Shown here one piece after another: positions 1 to 6,890 of a stretch of DNA of 64,000 nucleotides (its first letter is position 1; the number at the start of each line of letters is the position of its first letter). Below the pieces are notes generated by a model that made no database searches, was not told the origin of the DNA, and saw only the letters and a program-made list of their open reading frames with translations. The position numbers and the translations under genes were made by a program. Source of the DNA: Burkholderia pseudomultivorans (GTDB lineage Bacteria > Pseudomonadota > Gammaproteobacteria > Burkholderiales > Burkholderiaceae); the NCBI RefSeq assembly GCF_001718415.1, contig NZ_CP013377.1, positions 2,604,001-2,668,000 of the forward strand, in the 5' to 3' direction.

Positions 1-345
1 GACGACAAGCCCGACATCCCGTTTCCCGGTCGGTGGGATCTGCCCGGCGGCGGCAGGGAAGGCGGCGAGACGCCGACCGACTGCGTGCTGCGCGAACTGC
101 ATGAGGAATTCGGCATCACGATCCCGACCGACCGGATCCGCTGGTCGAAGGTCTATCCGTCGACCCGGCCGAACGGCCTGCCGCAGTGGTTCTTCGCCGG
201 CTGGCTGAGCGCCATGGACATCGCCGCGATCCGCTTCGGCGACGAAGGCCAGGAATGGACGCTGATGCCTGTCGACGCATACCTGCGCCTGCCCGACGCG
301 ATCGAACACTTGCAGGCGCGCGTAAGCGAATATCTGCGCGCCTGA
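1..345 (+). CDS. Nudix hydrolase, 3' part (5' end outside window)
   Basis: The reading frame is open from the first base and ends at TGA 343-345, giving 114 visible residues. A full Nudix box lies at visible residues 17-39 (G-x5-E-x7-REL-x-EE-x-G-I), the Mg2+-binding motif for hydrolysis of nucleoside diphosphates linked to another moiety. The substrate cannot be told from this fragment. The upstream part of the fold and the true start lie before the window. It converges on the sulfur operon, whose terminator follows directly. Family assignment is firm; specificity is unknown. Confidence 0.85.
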   Translation, partial: DDKPDIPFPGRWDLPGGGREGGETPTDCVLRELHEEFGITIPTDRIRWSKVYPSTRPNGLPQWFFAGWLSAMDIAAIRFGDEGQEWTLMPVDAYLRLPDAIEHLQARVSEYLRA

Positions 346-356
346 CTTCACAGGAC

Positions 357-392
357 AAAAAAGCCGCTTGCGCGCCGACGCACGCAAGCGGC
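357..392 (-). terminator. Rho-independent terminator of the encapsulin operon
   Basis: Read on the minus strand: a 10-bp perfect stem (arms 383-392 and 363-372, GCCGCTTGCG against CGCAAGCGGC) with a 10-nt loop, followed by six T. It sits 18 bp past the cysteine desulfurase stop, so it ends that transcript and insulates it from the convergent Nudix gene. Confidence 0.9.
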
Positions 393-409
393 CTGACGCT
401 GTCGCGCGC

Positions 410-2428
410 TCAACGCCGCGTCGCCAGCCTCCGCACCACACGCACCAGCGCATCGACCTCGTCGCAGGTGTTGTAGAACGCAAGCGACGGCCGCACCGTC
501 GCCTCGAGCCCGAAGCGCCTCAGGATCGGCTGCGCGCAGTGATGCCCCGAGCGCACCGCGATTCCTTCTTCGTTCAGCGCCTGCCCGACCTCTTCGGTCT
601 CGTAGCCCTTCAGTACGAACGACAGCACGCTCGCCTTGTCGCGCGCGGTGCCGATCAGCCGCACGCCCGGCACCGGCGCGAGCACGCTCGTCGCATACGC
701 GAGCAGGTCGTGCTCGTAGCGCGCGATGTTCTCGATGCCGACCCGGCTCACGTAGTCGAGCGCCGCGCCGAGCCCGACCGCATCGGCGATGTTGCCGGTG
801 CCGGCCTCGAAGCGGTTCGGCGGCGGCTGGAACACCGTGCGCTCGAACGTCACGTCCGCGATCATGTTGCCGCCGCCCTGCCACGGCGGCATGTCGTCGA
901 GGATCGAGCGCTTGCCGTACACGACGCCGATGCCGGTCGGACCGTAGATCTTGTGTCCGGAGAACACGAAGAAATCCGCATCGAGCGCCTGCACGTCCAC
1001 CCGCATGTGCGAGATCGACTGCGCGCCGTCGACGAGCGCCTTCGCGCCCGCGCGATGCGCAAGCTCGACGATCTCCTTGACCGGCACGACCGTGCCGAGC
1101 GCATTCGACACCTGCGTGACCGACACGATCTTCGTGCGATCGTTGAGCAGCTTCCGGTATTCGTCGAGCAGCACCTGCCCCGAATCGTCGACCGGAATCA
1201 CGCGCAGCTTCGCGCCCTTGAGCGCGGCAAGCTGCTGCCACGGCACGATGTTCGCGTGATGCTCGAGATGCGACACGACGATCTCGTCGCCCTCGCCGAC
1301 GTTCTGCACACCCCACGTCTTCGCGATCAGGTTGATCGCTTCGGTCGTGCCGCGCACGAACACGATCTCGTCCGGCGACGCCGCGCCGATGAAACGCCGC
1401 ACGGTTTCCCGCGCCTGTTCGTACGCATCGGTCGCGCGGCCCGCCAGCGCGTGCGCGGCGCGGTGGATGTTCGAGTTCTCGTGCGCGTAGAAATACGCGA
1501 GCCGGTCGATCACGGCTTGCGGCTTGTGCGTGGTCGCCGCGTTGTCGAACCAGACGAGCTGCTTGCCGTTCACGCGCTCCTGGAGAATCGGGAAATCGCG
1601 GCGGATCGCGTTCACGTCGAACGGCGGATGCGCGCCGCCGGCCAGCGCATGCGGTTCGGCCGCGCGCGCATCGTCGACGAAGTAGCGCGGCACGTCGGTG
1701 CCCGGCGCGCGCGATGCGCCCGGCGCCGGCGTGTCGCGACGCAGCGCGAGCAGTTCGCGCAGCGCGTCGTCGCCCGGCAGGCCGAACGCTTCCGGCGACG
1801 CGAGGCCGTTCGACGGCACGACGATGTCCTGCGGCGTCGCGTGCCAGTCCTGCAATGCACCGTCGGTGAAGTAGTACGGCGAAGCAGGCGACGCCCGTCT
1901 GTCAGCCTGTTCCGCTGCCGCCGCATGCGCCTGCGGCACGCCGAGCGCCGTGCCGCCGACACGCGGTTCGAGCGCGGGCGCGATCGACACGACGTTGTCG
2001 GGCAGCCCGTTCTGCGCAGCCGCATGCGGCGCCAGCGCCGGCACGCGATTGCCGAGCGACAGCACGTGCGTCGGCGCGGACGGCGCCAGGTTCGCGCCGG
2101 CCGCCTTGCCCTGCGGCAACGCAAGGCCCGGCACGCCGGTGCCCGTGCCGCCCGATCCTGCGAGCGGCGAGCCGGCCGGCGCCGGATTGCTCGTCGAAGC
2201 GAGGATCGGCGCGGCGGCGGGCAGCGCCGACGGCACGCCGCCGACCGCGCCGCTGCCGGCCGACAGGCCGGGCGCCGTCGCATGGCCCGGTGGCGTCGAC
2301 AAGAATTCGGCCGCGAGCCGCGCGAGCGTCGCGGGGTCGGGCAGCCCGGCCGGCAGCGGCGCGTGCGGCAGCGCGAGTGCGTCGCTGCCCGGCACGCCGG
2401 GATTAACGGTAGGTGTCGGGATAGTCAT
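410..2428 (-). CDS. SufS-like cysteine desulfurase with long N-terminal encapsulin-targeting tail
   Basis: PLP enzyme that removes sulfur from L-cysteine as an enzyme persulfide, giving alanine. The 672-residue protein (ATG at 2428, overlapping the shell gene by 26 bp) has two parts. Residues 1-~269 are low-complexity Ala/Pro/Gly with short conserved-looking islands (a predicted helix near 29-43, SPYYF near 183, PRYFVDD near 247). The rest is a type II (SufS/CsdA) desulfurase with the PLP lysine in FSGHKIYGPTG and the catalytic cysteine in RSGHHCAQP (about residue 631). Normal SufS is ~410 residues, so the tail is an addition. In known family 2A encapsulins exactly this kind of disordered tail packages the desulfurase inside the shell. 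Alternative ATGs at 2470 and 2452 exist; 2428 is chosen because it minimises overlap, but no start has a strong Shine-Dalgarno. It is the last gene of the operon. Confidence 0.93.
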   Translation of the reverse strand: MTIPTPTVNPGVPGSDALALPHAPLPAGLPDPATLARLAAEFLSTPPGHATAPGLSAGSGAVGGVPSALPAAAPILASTSNPAPAGSPLAGSGGTGTGVPGLALPQGKAAGANLAPSAPTHVLSLGNRVPALAPHAAAQNGLPDNVVSIAPALEPRVGGTALGVPQAHAAAAEQADRRASPASPYYFTDGALQDWHATPQDIVVPSNGLASPEAFGLPGDDALRELLALRRDTPAPGASRAPGTDVPRYFVDDARAAEPHALAGGAHPPFDVNAIRRDFPILQERVNGKQLVWFDNAATTHKPQAVIDRLAYFYAHENSNIHRAAHALAGRATDAYEQARETVRRFIGAASPDEIVFVRGTTEAINLIAKTWGVQNVGEGDEIVVSHLEHHANIVPWQQLAALKGAKLRVIPVDDSGQVLLDEYRKLLNDRTKIVSVTQVSNALGTVVPVKEIVELAHRAGAKALVDGAQSISHMRVDVQALDADFFVFSGHKIYGPTGIGVVYGKRSILDDMPPWQGGGNMIADVTFERTVFQPPPNRFEAGTGNIADAVGLGAALDYVSRVGIENIARYEHDLLAYATSVLAPVPGVRLIGTARDKASVLSFVLKGYETEEVGQALNEEGIAVRSGHHCAQPILRRFGLEATVRPSLAFYNTCDEVDALVRVVRRLATRR

Positions 2429-3335
2429 GGTACTTGCCGATTTCGACGTCATCGAGGACAGCCAGCGCATCCGGCGAATGGACCGCGAGCGAGCAGTACA
2501 ACGAGATCAGGTACGACGCGATCGCCTGGTTGTTGATCCCCATGAAGCGCACCGACAGCCCCGGGCCCTGCTCGCCCGCGACGCCCGGCTGGTAGAGGCC
2601 GACGACGCCCTGCCGCTTGTCGCCGACGCGCAGCAGCAGGATCTTGCTCTTGCCGTCCGCGACCGGCACCTTGTCCGACGGAATCAGCGGAATGCCGCGC
2701 CACGTGAGGAACTGCGAGCCGAACAGGCTGACCGTCGGCGGCGGCACGCCGCGCCGCGTGCATTCGCGGCCGAACGCGGCGATCGCGAGCGGATGCGCGA
2801 GGAAGAACGCGGGTTCCTTCCACACCCTGGTCAACAGTTCGTCGAGATCGTCCGGCGTCGGCGCGCCCGTCAGCGGGAAGATCCGCTGTTCGTCGGTCAC
2901 GTTCGCGAGCAATCCGTAGTCCGGATTATTGATCAGCTGGCTTTCCTGCAGCTCCTTGATCGTCTCGATCGTCAGGCGCAGCTGCTCCTTGATCTGGTCG
3001 TGCGGGCTGCTGTAGAGATCGGAGATGCGCGTATGCACGTCGAGCACCGTGCTGACCGCGTTCAGGAAATACTCGCGCGGCTGCTCCTCGTACGGCACGA
3101 ACGTCCGCGGCAGCACGCTCTCGTCCTCGAGCTGCGTGCAGGCGGCGCGGACCGCTTCCGGGTTCTTCACCTGGTTCAGGCGATAGATGCCCGCCTCGAC
3201 CGGCACCCATTGCAGCAGGTGGGTCAGCCAGCGCGGCGTGATGGTGGAAAGCTGCGGGACGGTCTTGGTAGCGTTCGCTAGTTGGCGGGCGGCGTGATCG
3301 CTCAGCGCGGCCGTGCCGCTTGCAACGGTCGACAT
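2403..3335 (-). CDS. Family 2A encapsulin shell protein (SrpI-like)
   Basis: A 310-residue HK97-fold shell protein that self-assembles into a protein nanocompartment. Recognised by its overall sequence, including the N-terminal arm (LSDHAARQLANATKTVPQ) and the C-terminal end on IGKYHDYPDTYR, typical of the SrpI group, and by its length. The ATG at 3335 has CGGAG six bases upstream. Its 3' end overlaps the desulfurase gene, implying coupled translation of shell and cargo. Family knowledge: cysteine desulfurase-loaded 2A encapsulins have been linked to sulfur limitation and to storage of elemental sulfur inside the shell. Assignment is confident; the physiological role here is inferred. Confidence 0.93.
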   Translation of the reverse strand: MSTVASGTAALSDHAARQLANATKTVPQLSTITPRWLTHLLQWVPVEAGIYRLNQVKNPEAVRAACTQLEDESVLPRTFVPYEEQPREYFLNAVSTVLDVHTRISDLYSSPHDQIKEQLRLTIETIKELQESQLINNPDYGLLANVTDEQRIFPLTGAPTPDDLDELLTRVWKEPAFFLAHPLAIAAFGRECTRRGVPPPTVSLFGSQFLTWRGIPLIPSDKVPVADGKSKILLLRVGDKRQGVVGLYQPGVAGEQGPGLSVRFMGINNQAIASYLISLYCSLAVHSPDALAVLDDVEIGKYHDYPDTYR

Positions 3336-3479
3336 GTGTGGCTCCGGGTTCTTTAGATGAAAAACGGGATTGCTTATGACGCGGGGTGATTATCGGAAGC
3401 GTACGCATGCCGGCTCAACATGCTATAGCCGTCACGCGGCACCACCGATGGCGGAAAGAAACGGAACGGACGCGGCCGG

Positions 3480-3710
3480 TCAGGGCACGAGCGCGTCGGA
3501 CGGGCTGCTCAGCAGCGACGACAACGACACGTCGAACGCGCGCGCGATCTTGTGTGCGGTGACGATCGACGCGATCGCCTCGCCGCGCTCGATCTCGCCG
3601 ACGTACGAACGGTTCAGCCCCGCATGCTCGGCAAGCTGCTCCTGCGACCACGTGCGCGCCTCTCGCAGCCGCCGCACGGTGGATCCGAAGTGCTGGATCA
3701 GGTCGCTCAT
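3480..3710 (-). CDS. Small XRE-family HTH regulator in the sulfur operon
   Basis: A 76-residue protein consisting of little more than one Cro/C1-type helix-turn-helix (residues ~8-65: LREARTWSQEQLAEHAGLN, then SYVGEIERGE). The ATG overlaps the acetyltransferase stop as ATGA (3707-3710), so the two are translationally coupled. It is probably an autoregulator of the operon. A 144-bp gap separates it from the encapsulin gene and could hold a second promoter or its operator. No sensor domain is visible, so any signal would be sensed through a partner or metabolite on the HTH itself. Confidence 0.85.
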   Translation of the reverse strand: MSDLIQHFGSTVRRLREARTWSQEQLAEHAGLNRSYVGEIERGEAIASIVTAHKIARAFDVSLSSLLSSPSDALVP

Positions 3711-4657
3711 GACGCCACCCGTGCGATCGCGGTCGTCTCGACCGCCGCGCGCGGCGTCGCGCTCGCGTCGCTGCGCAGCACCGCCTGCGTGACGTTCGCG
3801 CCGGCCGGCACGTCCTGCGTGAGCCACACGTTGCCGCCGATCACCGCGCCGCGCCCGATCGTCACGCGGCCGAGGATCGTCGCGCCCGCGTAGATCACGA
3901 CGTCGTCCTCGACGATCGGATGGCGCGCGAGCCCCTTCTCCAGGTGGCCGGCCGCGTCGCGCGGGAAGCGCTTCGCGCCGAGCGTGACGGCCTGGTATAC
4001 GCGCACGCGCTCGCCGATGATCGCCGTCTCGCCGATCACGACGCCGGTGCCATGGTCGATGAAGAAGCCGCCGCCGATGCGCGCGCCCGGATGGATGTCG
4101 ATGCCCGTCTCCGCATGCGCCTGCTCGGCGATGATCCGCGCGAGCAGCGGCAGGCCGAGCCGATAGAGTTCGTGCGCGAGCCGGTGATGGATCATCGCGA
4201 GGATGCCCGGATAGCACAGCAGCACTTCGTCGACGCTGCCGGCCGCCGGATCGCCATGAAACGCCGCCAGCACGTCGCTGTCGAGCAGCCGGCGGATCTC
4301 GGGCAGGCGCTCGGCGAATGCCTGCACGGCGGCCGACGCCGGCTCGTCGATCGACGGGTCGCTGTTGCGCTGGCGCGCCGCGTAGCGCAGTTCCAGCGTC
4401 ACCTGTGCGAGCAGTGCGTTCAGCGCCGCGTCGAGCGCGTGCGCCACATAGAAGTTCTCGCTTTCCTGACGCAGGTCGGGCGGCCCGAGACGCATCGGGA
4501 ACAGCACGCCCTTCAACGCGCCGACGATCTGCGCGAGCGCCTCGCGCGCCGGCAGGTCGCGTCCGCCCGGTTCGAGCGAGCGCCGCTGCTTCTCGCGCCA
4601 TGCGCGGCGCACGCTCTGCAGCGACTGGACGATGTCGTCGATTTCGAATGCGGCCAT
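3707..4657 (-). CDS. epsC: Serine O-acetyltransferase, EpsC type
   Basis: Makes O-acetyl-L-serine from serine and acetyl-CoA, the carbon precursor of cysteine. 316 residues: an alpha-helical N-terminal half (1-~190), then a left-handed beta-helix of hexapeptide repeats from about residue 200, with the catalytic segment around GIDIHPGARIGGGFFIDHGTG and later GRGAVIGGNVWL. The extra N-terminal length matches the EpsC subgroup rather than E. coli CysE. It lies 27 bp after the rhodanese gene and is coupled to the XRE gene. Placed with a cysteine desulfurase, it would supply cysteine that the encapsulated enzyme then desulfurates. Confidence 0.92.
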   Translation of the reverse strand: MAAFEIDDIVQSLQSVRRAWREKQRRSLEPGGRDLPAREALAQIVGALKGVLFPMRLGPPDLRQESENFYVAHALDAALNALLAQVTLELRYAARQRNSDPSIDEPASAAVQAFAERLPEIRRLLDSDVLAAFHGDPAAGSVDEVLLCYPGILAMIHHRLAHELYRLGLPLLARIIAEQAHAETGIDIHPGARIGGGFFIDHGTGVVIGETAIIGERVRVYQAVTLGAKRFPRDAAGHLEKGLARHPIVEDDVVIYAGATILGRVTIGRGAVIGGNVWLTQDVPAGANVTQAVLRSDASATPRAAVETTAIARVAS

Positions 4658-4684
4658 GATCCCCTCTCCCCGTATCGCCGCGTG

Positions 4685-5155
4685 TCAGTCCTGCACCCAC
4701 GGCAGGCCGTGAAAACGCCAGCCGTTGCGGCCGCCGCGGTGCTGTCCGTCGTCCAGGTCGCCCTCGAAGCCTTCGAGCACGTTGAATACCTGCGTGAAAC
4801 CGGCCTTGGTCGCGGCCTCGGCCGCCTGCGCGGAGCGGTTGCCGCTGCGGCACAGCAACAGCACCACGGCGTCCTTGCCGGTCTTCGCTTCCAGTTCGCG
4901 CACGAAACGCGGATTGCGCGTCAGGCTCGTGCCGGTGGCCCACGCGACGTGCAGCGACGCCGGCACGTGGCCGACGAATTTCCGTTCTTCCGCGGTGCGC
5001 ACGTCGACCAGCAGCGCGTCGCCGGCCGAGAACAGCGCCCAGGCGACTTCCGGCGCGACGCCGCCCGCATAGGGCGTGCCGGCCGATGCGGCGGCCGCGC
5101 GGGCGTCTTCGAGCGCCTGCTGCGCGACGGTTCGTTCTTCCAATGCATGCGTCAT
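4685..5155 (-). CDS. Single-domain rhodanese sulfurtransferase
   Basis: 156 residues, first gene of the sulfur operon. Rhodanese fold with active-site loop LLCRSGNRS, whose cysteine carries the persulfide, and the conserved VDVRTAEER segment. The start at 5155 is chosen over an upstream in-frame ATG (5278) because AAGGA lies seven bases before it and the upstream 41 residues are not rhodanese-like. It probably passes sulfane sulfur to or from the encapsulated desulfurase. This pairing is known in family 2A encapsulin loci; the direction of sulfur flow here is inferred. Confidence 0.92.
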   Translation of the reverse strand: MTHALEERTVAQQALEDARAAAASAGTPYAGGVAPEVAWALFSAGDALLVDVRTAEERKFVGHVPASLHVAWATGTSLTRNPRFVRELEAKTGKDAVVLLLCRSGNRSAQAAEAATKAGFTQVFNVLEGFEGDLDDGQHRGGRNGWRFHGLPWVQD

Positions 5156-5577
5156 GACGCTTCCTTGTCCTTGCAGATTCGTACGATCAAAAAGGCTGGG
5201 AGTGCGGCCGGTGCAGCTTGCGTGCTGTCTATAGCCGTCAGCGTCACTATGCGAGTGCGTGTCGGGAAGCAGAACCAATAAAAATTCATTTCCTAATCAG
5301 CGCCGGGTGAATTGCAATGGCGCAGATATGCGATCGACGCGGGCGCACGGGCACGCGCCGGAAATGCATAGCGATGGCGGTGCGATGCGACATGCGCCAT
5401 CGCACGAGGAAGGGTCTTGAAAGAATCGTCGACGGGAATTCAGCGTCGCAGAACGCGAATCGCTGGGGAATCCAGACTCGAACGCGATGCCGGAACAGCA
5501 TCGCGTGCGCTCGTCACGGAGCCGGCTGCGGCCTGCCCGCGACGAGAACGCAACGCCCGAAGCCTGTCAGCCGCGCC
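5156..5577. other. Intergenic region, promoter of the rhodanese-encapsulin operon
   Basis: A 422-bp gap. The half nearest the rhodanese gene (5156-5300) is locally AT-rich and presumably carries the operon promoter. I could not fix a convincing -35/-10 pair. The part from 5300 to 5577 shows no coding signal on either strand, only frames shadowing the neighbouring gene. Confidence 0.4.
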
Positions 5578-6621
5578 TCACAGATGCTCGACCTGCAGAA
5601 TCGCATCGGCAAACGCCTGCGGCGCCTCCTGCGGCAGGTTGTGCCCGATGCCGCCGGCGATCGTCCGATGCTGGTACTTGCCGGTGAACTTCTTCGCATA
5701 GGCGGCCGGTTCCGGGTGCGGCGCACCGTTCGCGTCGCCTTCCATCGTGATCGTCGGCACCGTGATCGCGGGCCCGGCCGCGAGGCGTCGTTCGAGGTCG
5801 TCGTATTGCGCTTCGCCGTTCGCGAGGCCGAGGCGCCAGCGATAGTTGTGGATCACCACGGCAACATGATCCGGATTCCGGAACGATGCCGCACTGCGTG
5901 CAAACGTCGCATCGTCGAACTGCCATTTCGGCGACGCAAGCTGCCAGATCAGCTTGTTGAACGCATCGCGATTCGCCGCATAGCCCTGCGCGCCGCGCTC
6001 GGTCGTGAAGTAGAACTGATACCACCACTGGAATTCGGCCTGCGGCGGCAGCGGCTTGCGGTTCGCTTCCTGGCTGCCGATCAGGTAGCCGCTCACCGAT
6101 ACCAGCGCCTTCACGCGCTGCGGCCAGATCGCCGCGATGATGTCGGCCGTGCGCGCCCCCCAGTCGTAGCCGCCGAACACCGCGCGGTCGATCTTCAGTG
6201 CATCCATCAGCGCGACGATGTCGACCGCCGTGACCGCCTGCTGGCCGTTGCGCACCGTGTCGGCCGAGCGGAACGTCGTCGAGCCGTAGCCGCGCAGATA
6301 CGGCACGATCACGCGATAGCCGGCAGCCGCGAGCAGCGGCGCGACTTCGGCGTAGCTGTGAATGTCGTACGGCCAGCCATGCAGCAGGAACACGACCGGG
6401 CCGTTCCTCGGCCCGACGTCCGCATACCCGACGTTGAGCACACCCGCGTCGATCTGGTGGATCGTGTCGAACGACGCGCCGCCGGGAGCATGCTTCGTCG
6501 GCGATGCGTCGCCGGCCGATTGCGCGCGTGCGAGGTTGCCGAGGCCGAGGTCGGCGAGCGTCAGGCTCGCCAGCGTCGTACCGAGGATCAGGCGGCGTCG
6601 GGTGTTCACGGTTTCTGGCAT
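5578..6621 (-). CDS. Exported alpha/beta hydrolase, epoxide hydrolase-like (Asp nucleophile)
   Basis: 347 residues. The ATG at 6621 is preceded by GGAG and gives an N-terminus NTRRRLILG plus a hydrophobic stretch ending near an AQS cleavage site, a plausible Tat signal, so the enzyme is probably periplasmic. The fold shows the oxyanion motif HGWP, a nucleophile elbow GGYDWGAR with aspartate rather than serine, and a C-terminal catalytic histidine in GIGHNLPQ. An Asp nucleophile points to epoxide hydrolase or haloalkane dehalogenase chemistry rather than esterase. The natural substrate is unknown. It stands alone on the minus strand. Confidence 0.85.
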   Translation of the reverse strand: MPETVNTRRRLILGTTLASLTLADLGLGNLARAQSAGDASPTKHAPGGASFDTIHQIDAGVLNVGYADVGPRNGPVVFLLHGWPYDIHSYAEVAPLLAAAGYRVIVPYLRGYGSTTFRSADTVRNGQQAVTAVDIVALMDALKIDRAVFGGYDWGARTADIIAAIWPQRVKALVSVSGYLIGSQEANRKPLPPQAEFQWWYQFYFTTERGAQGYAANRDAFNKLIWQLASPKWQFDDATFARSAASFRNPDHVAVVIHNYRWRLGLANGEAQYDDLERRLAAGPAITVPTITMEGDANGAPHPEPAAYAKKFTGKYQHRTIAGGIGHNLPQEAPQAFADAILQVEHL

Positions 6622-6890
6622 GACTCGTTCTCCATGGTCGGTTGGTGAGGAACAGGCCCGCGGCACGTGCGAGCGTTCCGGCATCGCCGTTCGCGAAGCG
6701 GCGCATGACGCTGCGCTACCGTCGCGAACGCTTCAGCGCATTTATATCCGAACCGTCCGGATGCTTTGTATCTCAACGTATCCGGGTTCGTACACGACAC
6801 AAGACGATTCAAAATCGTCGGAGAAACGGCGTATTGCGGCGCAATCGCGGTGCGACGGGCCGCCCGCGCGGGCCGCCTGTCGCGCGACGC

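Follow-up and report, generated by a model that had tools for sequence, protein, structure and literature searches.

According to the accessible part of PMC8346489, 1281 family 2A encapsulin operons carry a desulfurase as putative cargo, and serine O-acetyltransferase (SAT) and rhodanese are their most highly enriched accessory genes. The available text of PMC8049743 reports that SrpI, the Synechococcus shell protein, is upregulated under sulfate starvation, and that the tail of the Synechococcus cysteine desulfurase (CyD) has two motifs, its first 100 residues giving some loading and the full 225 the most. Here we describe a locus of this kind in a 64,000-nucleotide stretch of the Burkholderia pseudomultivorans genome (contig NZ_CP013377.1, positions 2,604,001 to 2,668,000; hereafter the window). 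On its minus strand, from 5155 to 410, the window encodes a rhodanese, an EpsC-type SAT, a small XRE regulator, an encapsulin shell protein and CyD. Judged by its model matches, the locus is an encapsulated cysteine desulfurase system, a curated and published kind. Since SAT and rhodanese are already published accessories, two of the three companions belong, as do compartment and cargo, to an established kind, and the compartment is ordinary for that kind. The new part is the third companion, a lineage-specific candidate switch made up of the XRE regulator and a DNA site of its own.

Two described loci show what is shared and what is not. The shell protein is 74% identical to SrpI of Synechococcus elongatus, where the two tail motifs also occur, EpsC is encoded beside the shell gene and the rhodanese gene follows that of CyD. 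The Synechococcus order is cysK-epsC-srpI-cyd-rhodanese, with neither XRE gene nor site, whereas here rhodanese leads and XRE is placed between SAT and shell. The Acinetobacter baumannii locus, whose shell is 81% identical, has the same order of rhodanese, SAT, shell and CyD, but it likewise has no XRE gene and no site.

The shell model matches 52 of 65 genomes of the same genus, and XRE (E <= 1e-15) is encoded in all 52 of them and in none of the 13 shell-less genomes; weaker XRE paralogues are present in the source genome. For a wider comparison we used 80 named loci, which are the best 80 of at least 589 in a scan of the collection and are biased toward close relatives. XRE is present in 78 of these Burkholderiales loci. 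Draws at class and phylum level gave 18 more genomes with a shell match, of which 16 were fetched (G238, below the cut-off, and G522 were left out). Three of the 16, all from the same order, encode XRE and the other 13 do not; two of the three XRE loci were taken as duplicates of named loci. In a tree of 94 shells the XRE-bearing rows form one group (branch support 100/99), with a single XRE-less row inside. That row is Ottowia, which has neither XRE nor the site, and one gain and one loss of XRE would suffice on this tree. Methylosinus, like Acinetobacter and Synechococcus, has a locus without XRE. The initial annotation held that a small XRE regulator is not a fixed part of such loci, which is right for family 2A as a whole and does not extend to the Burkholderiales lineage, where nearly all named loci have the gene and a dedicated site goes with it.

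The site is apparent from the gaps between XRE and shell genes, which when aligned reveal the block TGRYGGCTATAGC(A/C)TGTTGA; it is built on GGCTATAGC. Its exact 17-base form occurs twice in the 8-Mb genome, once before the shell gene (operator 1) and once before the rhodanese gene (operator 2). Both copies fall within the regions that had been proposed for footprinting (3336-3479 and 5156-5300). A first, stricter test (CTATAG core, at most three mismatches in the 12-mer) placed the site upstream of the shell gene in 102 of 106 XRE loci, and all four misses carry a diverged copy. The loose form, [CG][TG]ATAG-N4-TTGA at most 300 nt ahead of the shell gene, was defined after the loci had been seen. 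It occurs in 79/79 non-overlapping XRE loci (78 named and L157) and in 0/15 loci without XRE (2 named and 13 distant), a co-occurrence that makes these palindromes candidate binding boxes. The 94 loci, 2.28 million bases read on both strands, contain 85 matches to the loose form in all, which leaves about six elsewhere. It is also found in 29 of 29 genus loci examined, one of which (L014) is too short to show XRE. A longer stretch of the same genome (L167) shows XRE separated from the shell gene by an insertion of about 1.3 kb, the site having stayed next to the latter; an opposite-strand frame at about 5394-6720, between the two genes, could encode a membrane protein. A strict 16-mer gives 92 matches in 47 of the 65 genus genomes and none in the 13 shell-less ones, against 2 for the reversed control. 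All 92 adjoin a shell gene, as contig and position compared by eye indicate. The pairing of site and XRE is thus well supported by comparison.

In 29 Comamonadaceae- or Oxalobacteraceae-like loci the site extends over the XRE stop codon, giving the protein an ...AIAC-like ending. The isoleucine codon in the overlap is ATA in 29 of 29 loci, versus 2 of 502 isoleucine codons in the shell genes of the same loci. Because so rare a codon is kept throughout, it is DNA and not protein that is conserved at the XRE end. We had considered the terminal cysteine (...LAAIAC) as a redox or persulfide sensor and rejected it, since the ATA codons point to a by-product of the site lying over the stop codon.

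Operator 1 directly precedes a predicted promoter for shell and cargo, the sole sigma-70-like match in positions 1-5900. The scan is not above chance (1 found, shuffle mean 0.5), and the promoter is called because it is conserved across loci. TTGA-17/18-nAnnnT follows the site directly in all 79 XRE loci (hexamer sought at 16-19 nt), the hexamer being GATAAT in 37, GACACT in 26, CATAAT in 7 and another in 9. The spacing between the ATAG core and TTGA is four bases in every one of them. The promoter agrees with the consensus at 9 of 12 positions, and for a transcription start 7 nt past the -10, operator 1 is by arithmetic centred at about -43. Upstream of the rhodanese gene, the -10-like hexamer CATAGT lies 14-16 nt before the CTATAG centre in 38 of 44 loci of the set L032-L076, which puts the centre of operator 2 near +7.

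These two positions resemble those used by controller (C) proteins of restriction-modification (R-M) systems. In C.Esp1396I, residues R35, T36 and R46 contact bases and each dimer is centred on TATA; the protein activates from OL via sigma recruitment and represses the M gene by binding its start site (PMC4041747, accessible part). Both types of position also occur here, one per promoter, a likeness of layout. The predicted structure of XRE (mean pLDDT 88) has C.BclI and C.AhdI as its best PDB matches by E-value in Foldseek, and a profile search of the PDB returns C.AhdI at 8e-18 and C.BclI at 2e-16. The length is similar (C.BclI has 77 and C.AhdI 74 residues), the palindromic site shares a central TATA, and the helix region LNRSYVGEIERG is close to LDRSYVGGVERG of C.AhdI. 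All 24 relatives aligned share N33, R34, S35 and Y36. SinR, ClgR and DdrO, HTH_3 proteins with other functions, match XRE as well, so the similarity confers neither exclusive C-protein membership nor proof of C-like behaviour. Unlike C proteins, XRE is tied to a nanocompartment, and its partners are rhodanese, SAT, shell and CyD instead of a restriction endonuclease or methyltransferase. The site also differs, GGCTATAGC here versus GACT-tat-AGTC (PMC4824078, in its accessible text), and there is one site at each of two promoters where C proteins have paired OL/OR boxes. XRE may work like a C protein while not being one by gene partnership.

We consider it probable that XRE acts as a C-protein-like switch, turning shell and cargo on and dampening expression of the upstream unit to which it belongs. 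The comparisons give families, gene order, co-occurrence of site and XRE, and promoter geometry; binding, direction of control, timing, sulfur storage and input signal are what we infer. The family 2A shell would take up the SufS-like CyD via its long N-terminal tail, EpsC SAT would feed cysteine synthesis and rhodanese would move sulfane sulfur. XRE and its operator, acquired jointly in this Burkholderiales lineage, would now run the locus. An upstream signal would fire the rhodanese promoter, XRE would be produced from the rhodanese-SAT-XRE unit, and its dimer would bind the site centred on CTATAG. Operator 1 abuts the -35, so XRE should recruit RNA polymerase there and turn on shell and cargo; operator 2 lies just past the -10, so XRE should block transcription there and limit its own unit. 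Expression would then be ordered, with SAT and rhodanese early and shell and desulfurase later. A more specific version is put forward tentatively, as a possibility that we would not call probable: a C-type temporal switch, recruited once in Burkholderiales, in which a single small dimer shuts the early sulfur-supply genes at their start site and, from its place next to the -35, turns on shell and cargo. If this is true, the shell and its reactive enzyme would appear only once SAT and rhodanese are in place, akin to the delay of restriction enzymes.

The same layout could serve repression at both promoters, with XRE as an autorepressor of the locus and a signal or another activator lifting repression under sulfur limitation. 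Small XRE proteins are often repressors, SinR and DdrO are among the structural matches, operator 2 covers the region where transcription presumably starts, and a 19-bp footprint at operator 1 would, by arithmetic, reach the first bases of the -35. Yet the four-base spacing held in all 79 loci fits polymerase contact at the -35, and at 9 of 12 consensus positions the promoter could still gain from an activator. We regard dual repression as unlikely on these grounds. It is far less probable that the GGCTATAGC element has nothing to do with XRE and is the site of a LysR-type general sulfur regulator, CysB or SsuR. The genes concern sulfur, and the response of Synechococcus SrpI to sulfate starvation (PMC8049743, accessible part) would suit such a regulator, but only two exact sites occur in 8 Mb, both at this locus, and 92 of 92 strict matches in the genus lie beside a shell gene. 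The site is also missing from the 15 XRE-less loci and was lost along with XRE in Ottowia.

Slightly less credible still is a hitch-hiking XRE that exerts no control over the shell, with a single transcript running from the rhodanese promoter. The shared orientation, the tight packing, the SAT/XRE overlap and the Acinetobacter and Synechococcus loci that manage without XRE are all compatible with it. Against a passenger stand the retention of XRE by 78 of the 80 named loci and by every one of the 52 genus genomes that have the shell, and the conserved separate promoter and site.

Several observations count against the switch that we favour. XRE lies just 5' of the shell gene in the same orientation, and read-through could also express shell and cargo. 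Activation and repression are read from the position of the sites. The genomes are related, and the independent events on the tree come to no more than one gain and one loss. The loose pattern was widened after three loci with CGATAG (L080, L083, L092), and among the 15 XRE-less loci, L163, L164 and L168 encode longer shells whose matches come in two pieces and lie just over the cut-off; these three may be family 2B, and without them the XRE-less count is 0/12. Five of the 52 shell-bearing genus genomes (G017, G025, G035, G050, G052) have no strict 16-mer. Together with G038 and G042 these five have the seven most diverged XREs (65-74% identity), and G050 carries a one-base variant of the strict site (L026). 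At up to two mismatches the reversed control is commoner (148 matches) than the 17-mer (36), so that only exact sites are meaningful. Operator 2 is less conserved than operator 1: in the 150 nt before rhodanese, 44 of the 45 loci L032-L076 have a CTATAG core, against 7 of the 33 loci L077-L110 (the one in L094 being unlike the site). Variovorax often has no such core there, and the rhodanese promoter has no strong -35. The storage role would be carried over from a relative: a 2024 study reportedly found that the compartment of that relative stores sulfur.

A near match at C1:814801, about 400 bp from an XRE paralogue, was considered as a second controlled locus and rejected. It sits within an open reading frame and belongs to a set of 34 matches with two mismatches, the tolerance at which the reversed control is so common.

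Table 1. Features of the encapsulin locus, with positions in the window.
Feature	Position	Strand	Basis or remark
Rhodanese, 156 aa	4685..5155	-	PF00581 (Rhodanese) 56 bits, cut-off 22
EpsC-type serine O-acetyltransferase (SAT), 316 aa	3707..4657	-	NF041874 160 bits, cut-off 150
XRE/controller-like regulator, 76 aa	3480..3710	-	HTH_3 59 bits, cut-off 23; closest PDB structures C.AhdI and C.BclI
Family 2A encapsulin shell protein, 310 aa	2403..3335	-	NF041162 525 bits, cut-off 380; PF19307; solved relatives 8t6r, 6x8m
Cysteine desulfurase CyD, 672 aa, encapsulin cargo	410..2428	-	NF041166 955 bits, cut-off 800; TIGR01979 565 bits
Operator 1, TGACGGCTATAGCATGT	3418..3434	-	Putative; directly 5' of the -35
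Operator 2, TGACGGCTATAGACAGC	5224..5240	-	Putative; 3' of the -10-like hexamer of the presumed rhodanese promoter
Shell/cargo promoter TTGAGC-18-GATAAT	3389..3418	-	Predicted; between XRE and shell gene
-10-like hexamer CATAGT of the presumed rhodanese promoter	5246..5251	-	
Conserved AT-rich upstream element TTTTATTGGTT (also AATTTTTATTGGTTC form)	5273..5283	-	Variable outside Burkholderia
CyD tail motif LARLAAEFLS (published LARLANEFFS), residues 35-44	2297..2326	-	
CyD tail motif ASPYYFTDG (published AASPYYFLDG), residues 182-190	1859..1885	-	
RSGHHC motif with presumed active-site cysteine (CyD)	536..553	-	R[SAT]GHHC in 73/73 CyD frames examined
Intrinsic terminator 3' of CyD	361..394	-	Hairpin, 15 pairs and T-run

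The locus is otherwise compact (Table 1). The SAT and XRE genes overlap by 4 nt (ATGA) and the shell and CyD genes by 26 nt; the CyD start was picked by homology, and an in-frame ATG at 2470 is open too. The stretch 400-350, which holds the terminator, folds at -30.6 kcal/mol (z -4.7), and none of 200 shuffles is equally stable. A terminator scan of 1-5900 is not above chance (2 found, shuffle mean 3.4), and the terminator is called because of its fold strength. The five minus-strand genes, both overlaps, the long CyD tail and the terminator of the initial annotation are all real, with the hairpin itself at 394-361. Its description of the genes as an operon survives in part: five same-strand genes do adjoin, but the sigma-70-like match between XRE and shell suggests that they are probably not one simple transcription unit.

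The identities given earlier to shell and cargo agree with the curated models, as NF041162 and NF041166 both exceed their NCBI cut-offs. The shell also matches the family 2B model (415 bits, cut-off 400) over part of the model length. PF19307 is its sole Pfam match, and it has no cyclic-nucleotide-binding domain. The best solved match is 8t6r, which we take to come from Acinetobacter baumannii and whose particle reportedly stores sulfur. ARAGORN finds no tRNA in the window, and an Rfam scan gave a single sub-threshold match that was disregarded. The source genome encodes a second EpsC-like SAT (L165 4120-5100, contig C1), where the 9 kb examined contain no shell gene, and a CysE that exceeds its cut-off on contig C2.

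CyD carries about 270 residues before its SufS domain, much as first described, the TIGR01979 match spanning residues 274-667. The examined CyD frames number 73, since four of the 80 named loci have no CyD on the contig and three (L062, L085, L091) were dropped as cut or split. Initial patterns for the two tail motifs were too strict (36/73 and 27/73) and looser forms were adopted. The LARLAAEFLS motif is then found in 68 of 73 frames, and [FY]Y[FY] stands ahead of the enzyme domain in all 66 tails with a boundary found, seven proteins without a boundary being left out. Because both motifs published for Synechococcus CyD occur here, homology supports the earlier proposal that the N-terminal tail is a loading element and would direct CyD into the shell.

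Upstream of the presumed rhodanese promoter, the AT-rich element TTTTATTGGTT may be the site of another activator. Its reading as a CysB-type general sulfur-regulator site, in the form TTTTATTSGTT, was not established and remains a lead. One other exact copy exists in the genome, in the gap before a frame that reads in translation as isocitrate-lyase-like. TTTTATTSGTT is not found at two sulfate-binding-protein loci and has no tie to a sulfur regulon, and the shorter TTATTSGTT is upstream of rhodanese in only 39 of 79 named loci. Some of eight loci inspected among L077-L110 have palindromes such as GATGGTTATCGCCATC near the rhodanese start, replacing the CTATAG core.

Our search of the open-licence literature, outside which lie supplementary neighbour-family tables that may list XRE, found no paper on an XRE regulator of encapsulin loci. 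The main text of PMC8346489 contains no HTH, helix-turn-helix or XRE, and no dedicated regulator of family 2 compartments is described in the accessible parts of PMC8346489 and PMC8049743. The sole XRE literature match, PMC8987985, handles XRE and encapsulin separately in its accessible part. The letters TATAGCATGTTG occur in three papers, on vertebrate embryos by title and abstract, and literature on SsuR and CysB sites offered nothing usable for this locus.

As a small system of two promoters, for which a candidate regulator can be named and operators are predicted to the base across dozens of species, the locus makes nanocompartment control directly testable. It suggests that controllers of the R-M type have been reused outside DNA defence, and lineages with and without the putative switch are identified for comparison. 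Searches of phage and plasmid sequences with XRE gave matches below 60% identity, except for Burkholderia and Paraburkholderia records, and do not indicate its origin. Azospirillum brasilense has an XRE-annotated regulator of 199 aa, longer than XRE here, encoded divergently from the shell gene (L197 2743-3342) and without such a site; regulators may have been recruited independently across these loci. The five-gene locus occurs twice in Paraburkholderia xenovorans LB400 (L056 on chromosome 3 and L068 on chromosome 2), and both copies have an XRE and a site of their own.

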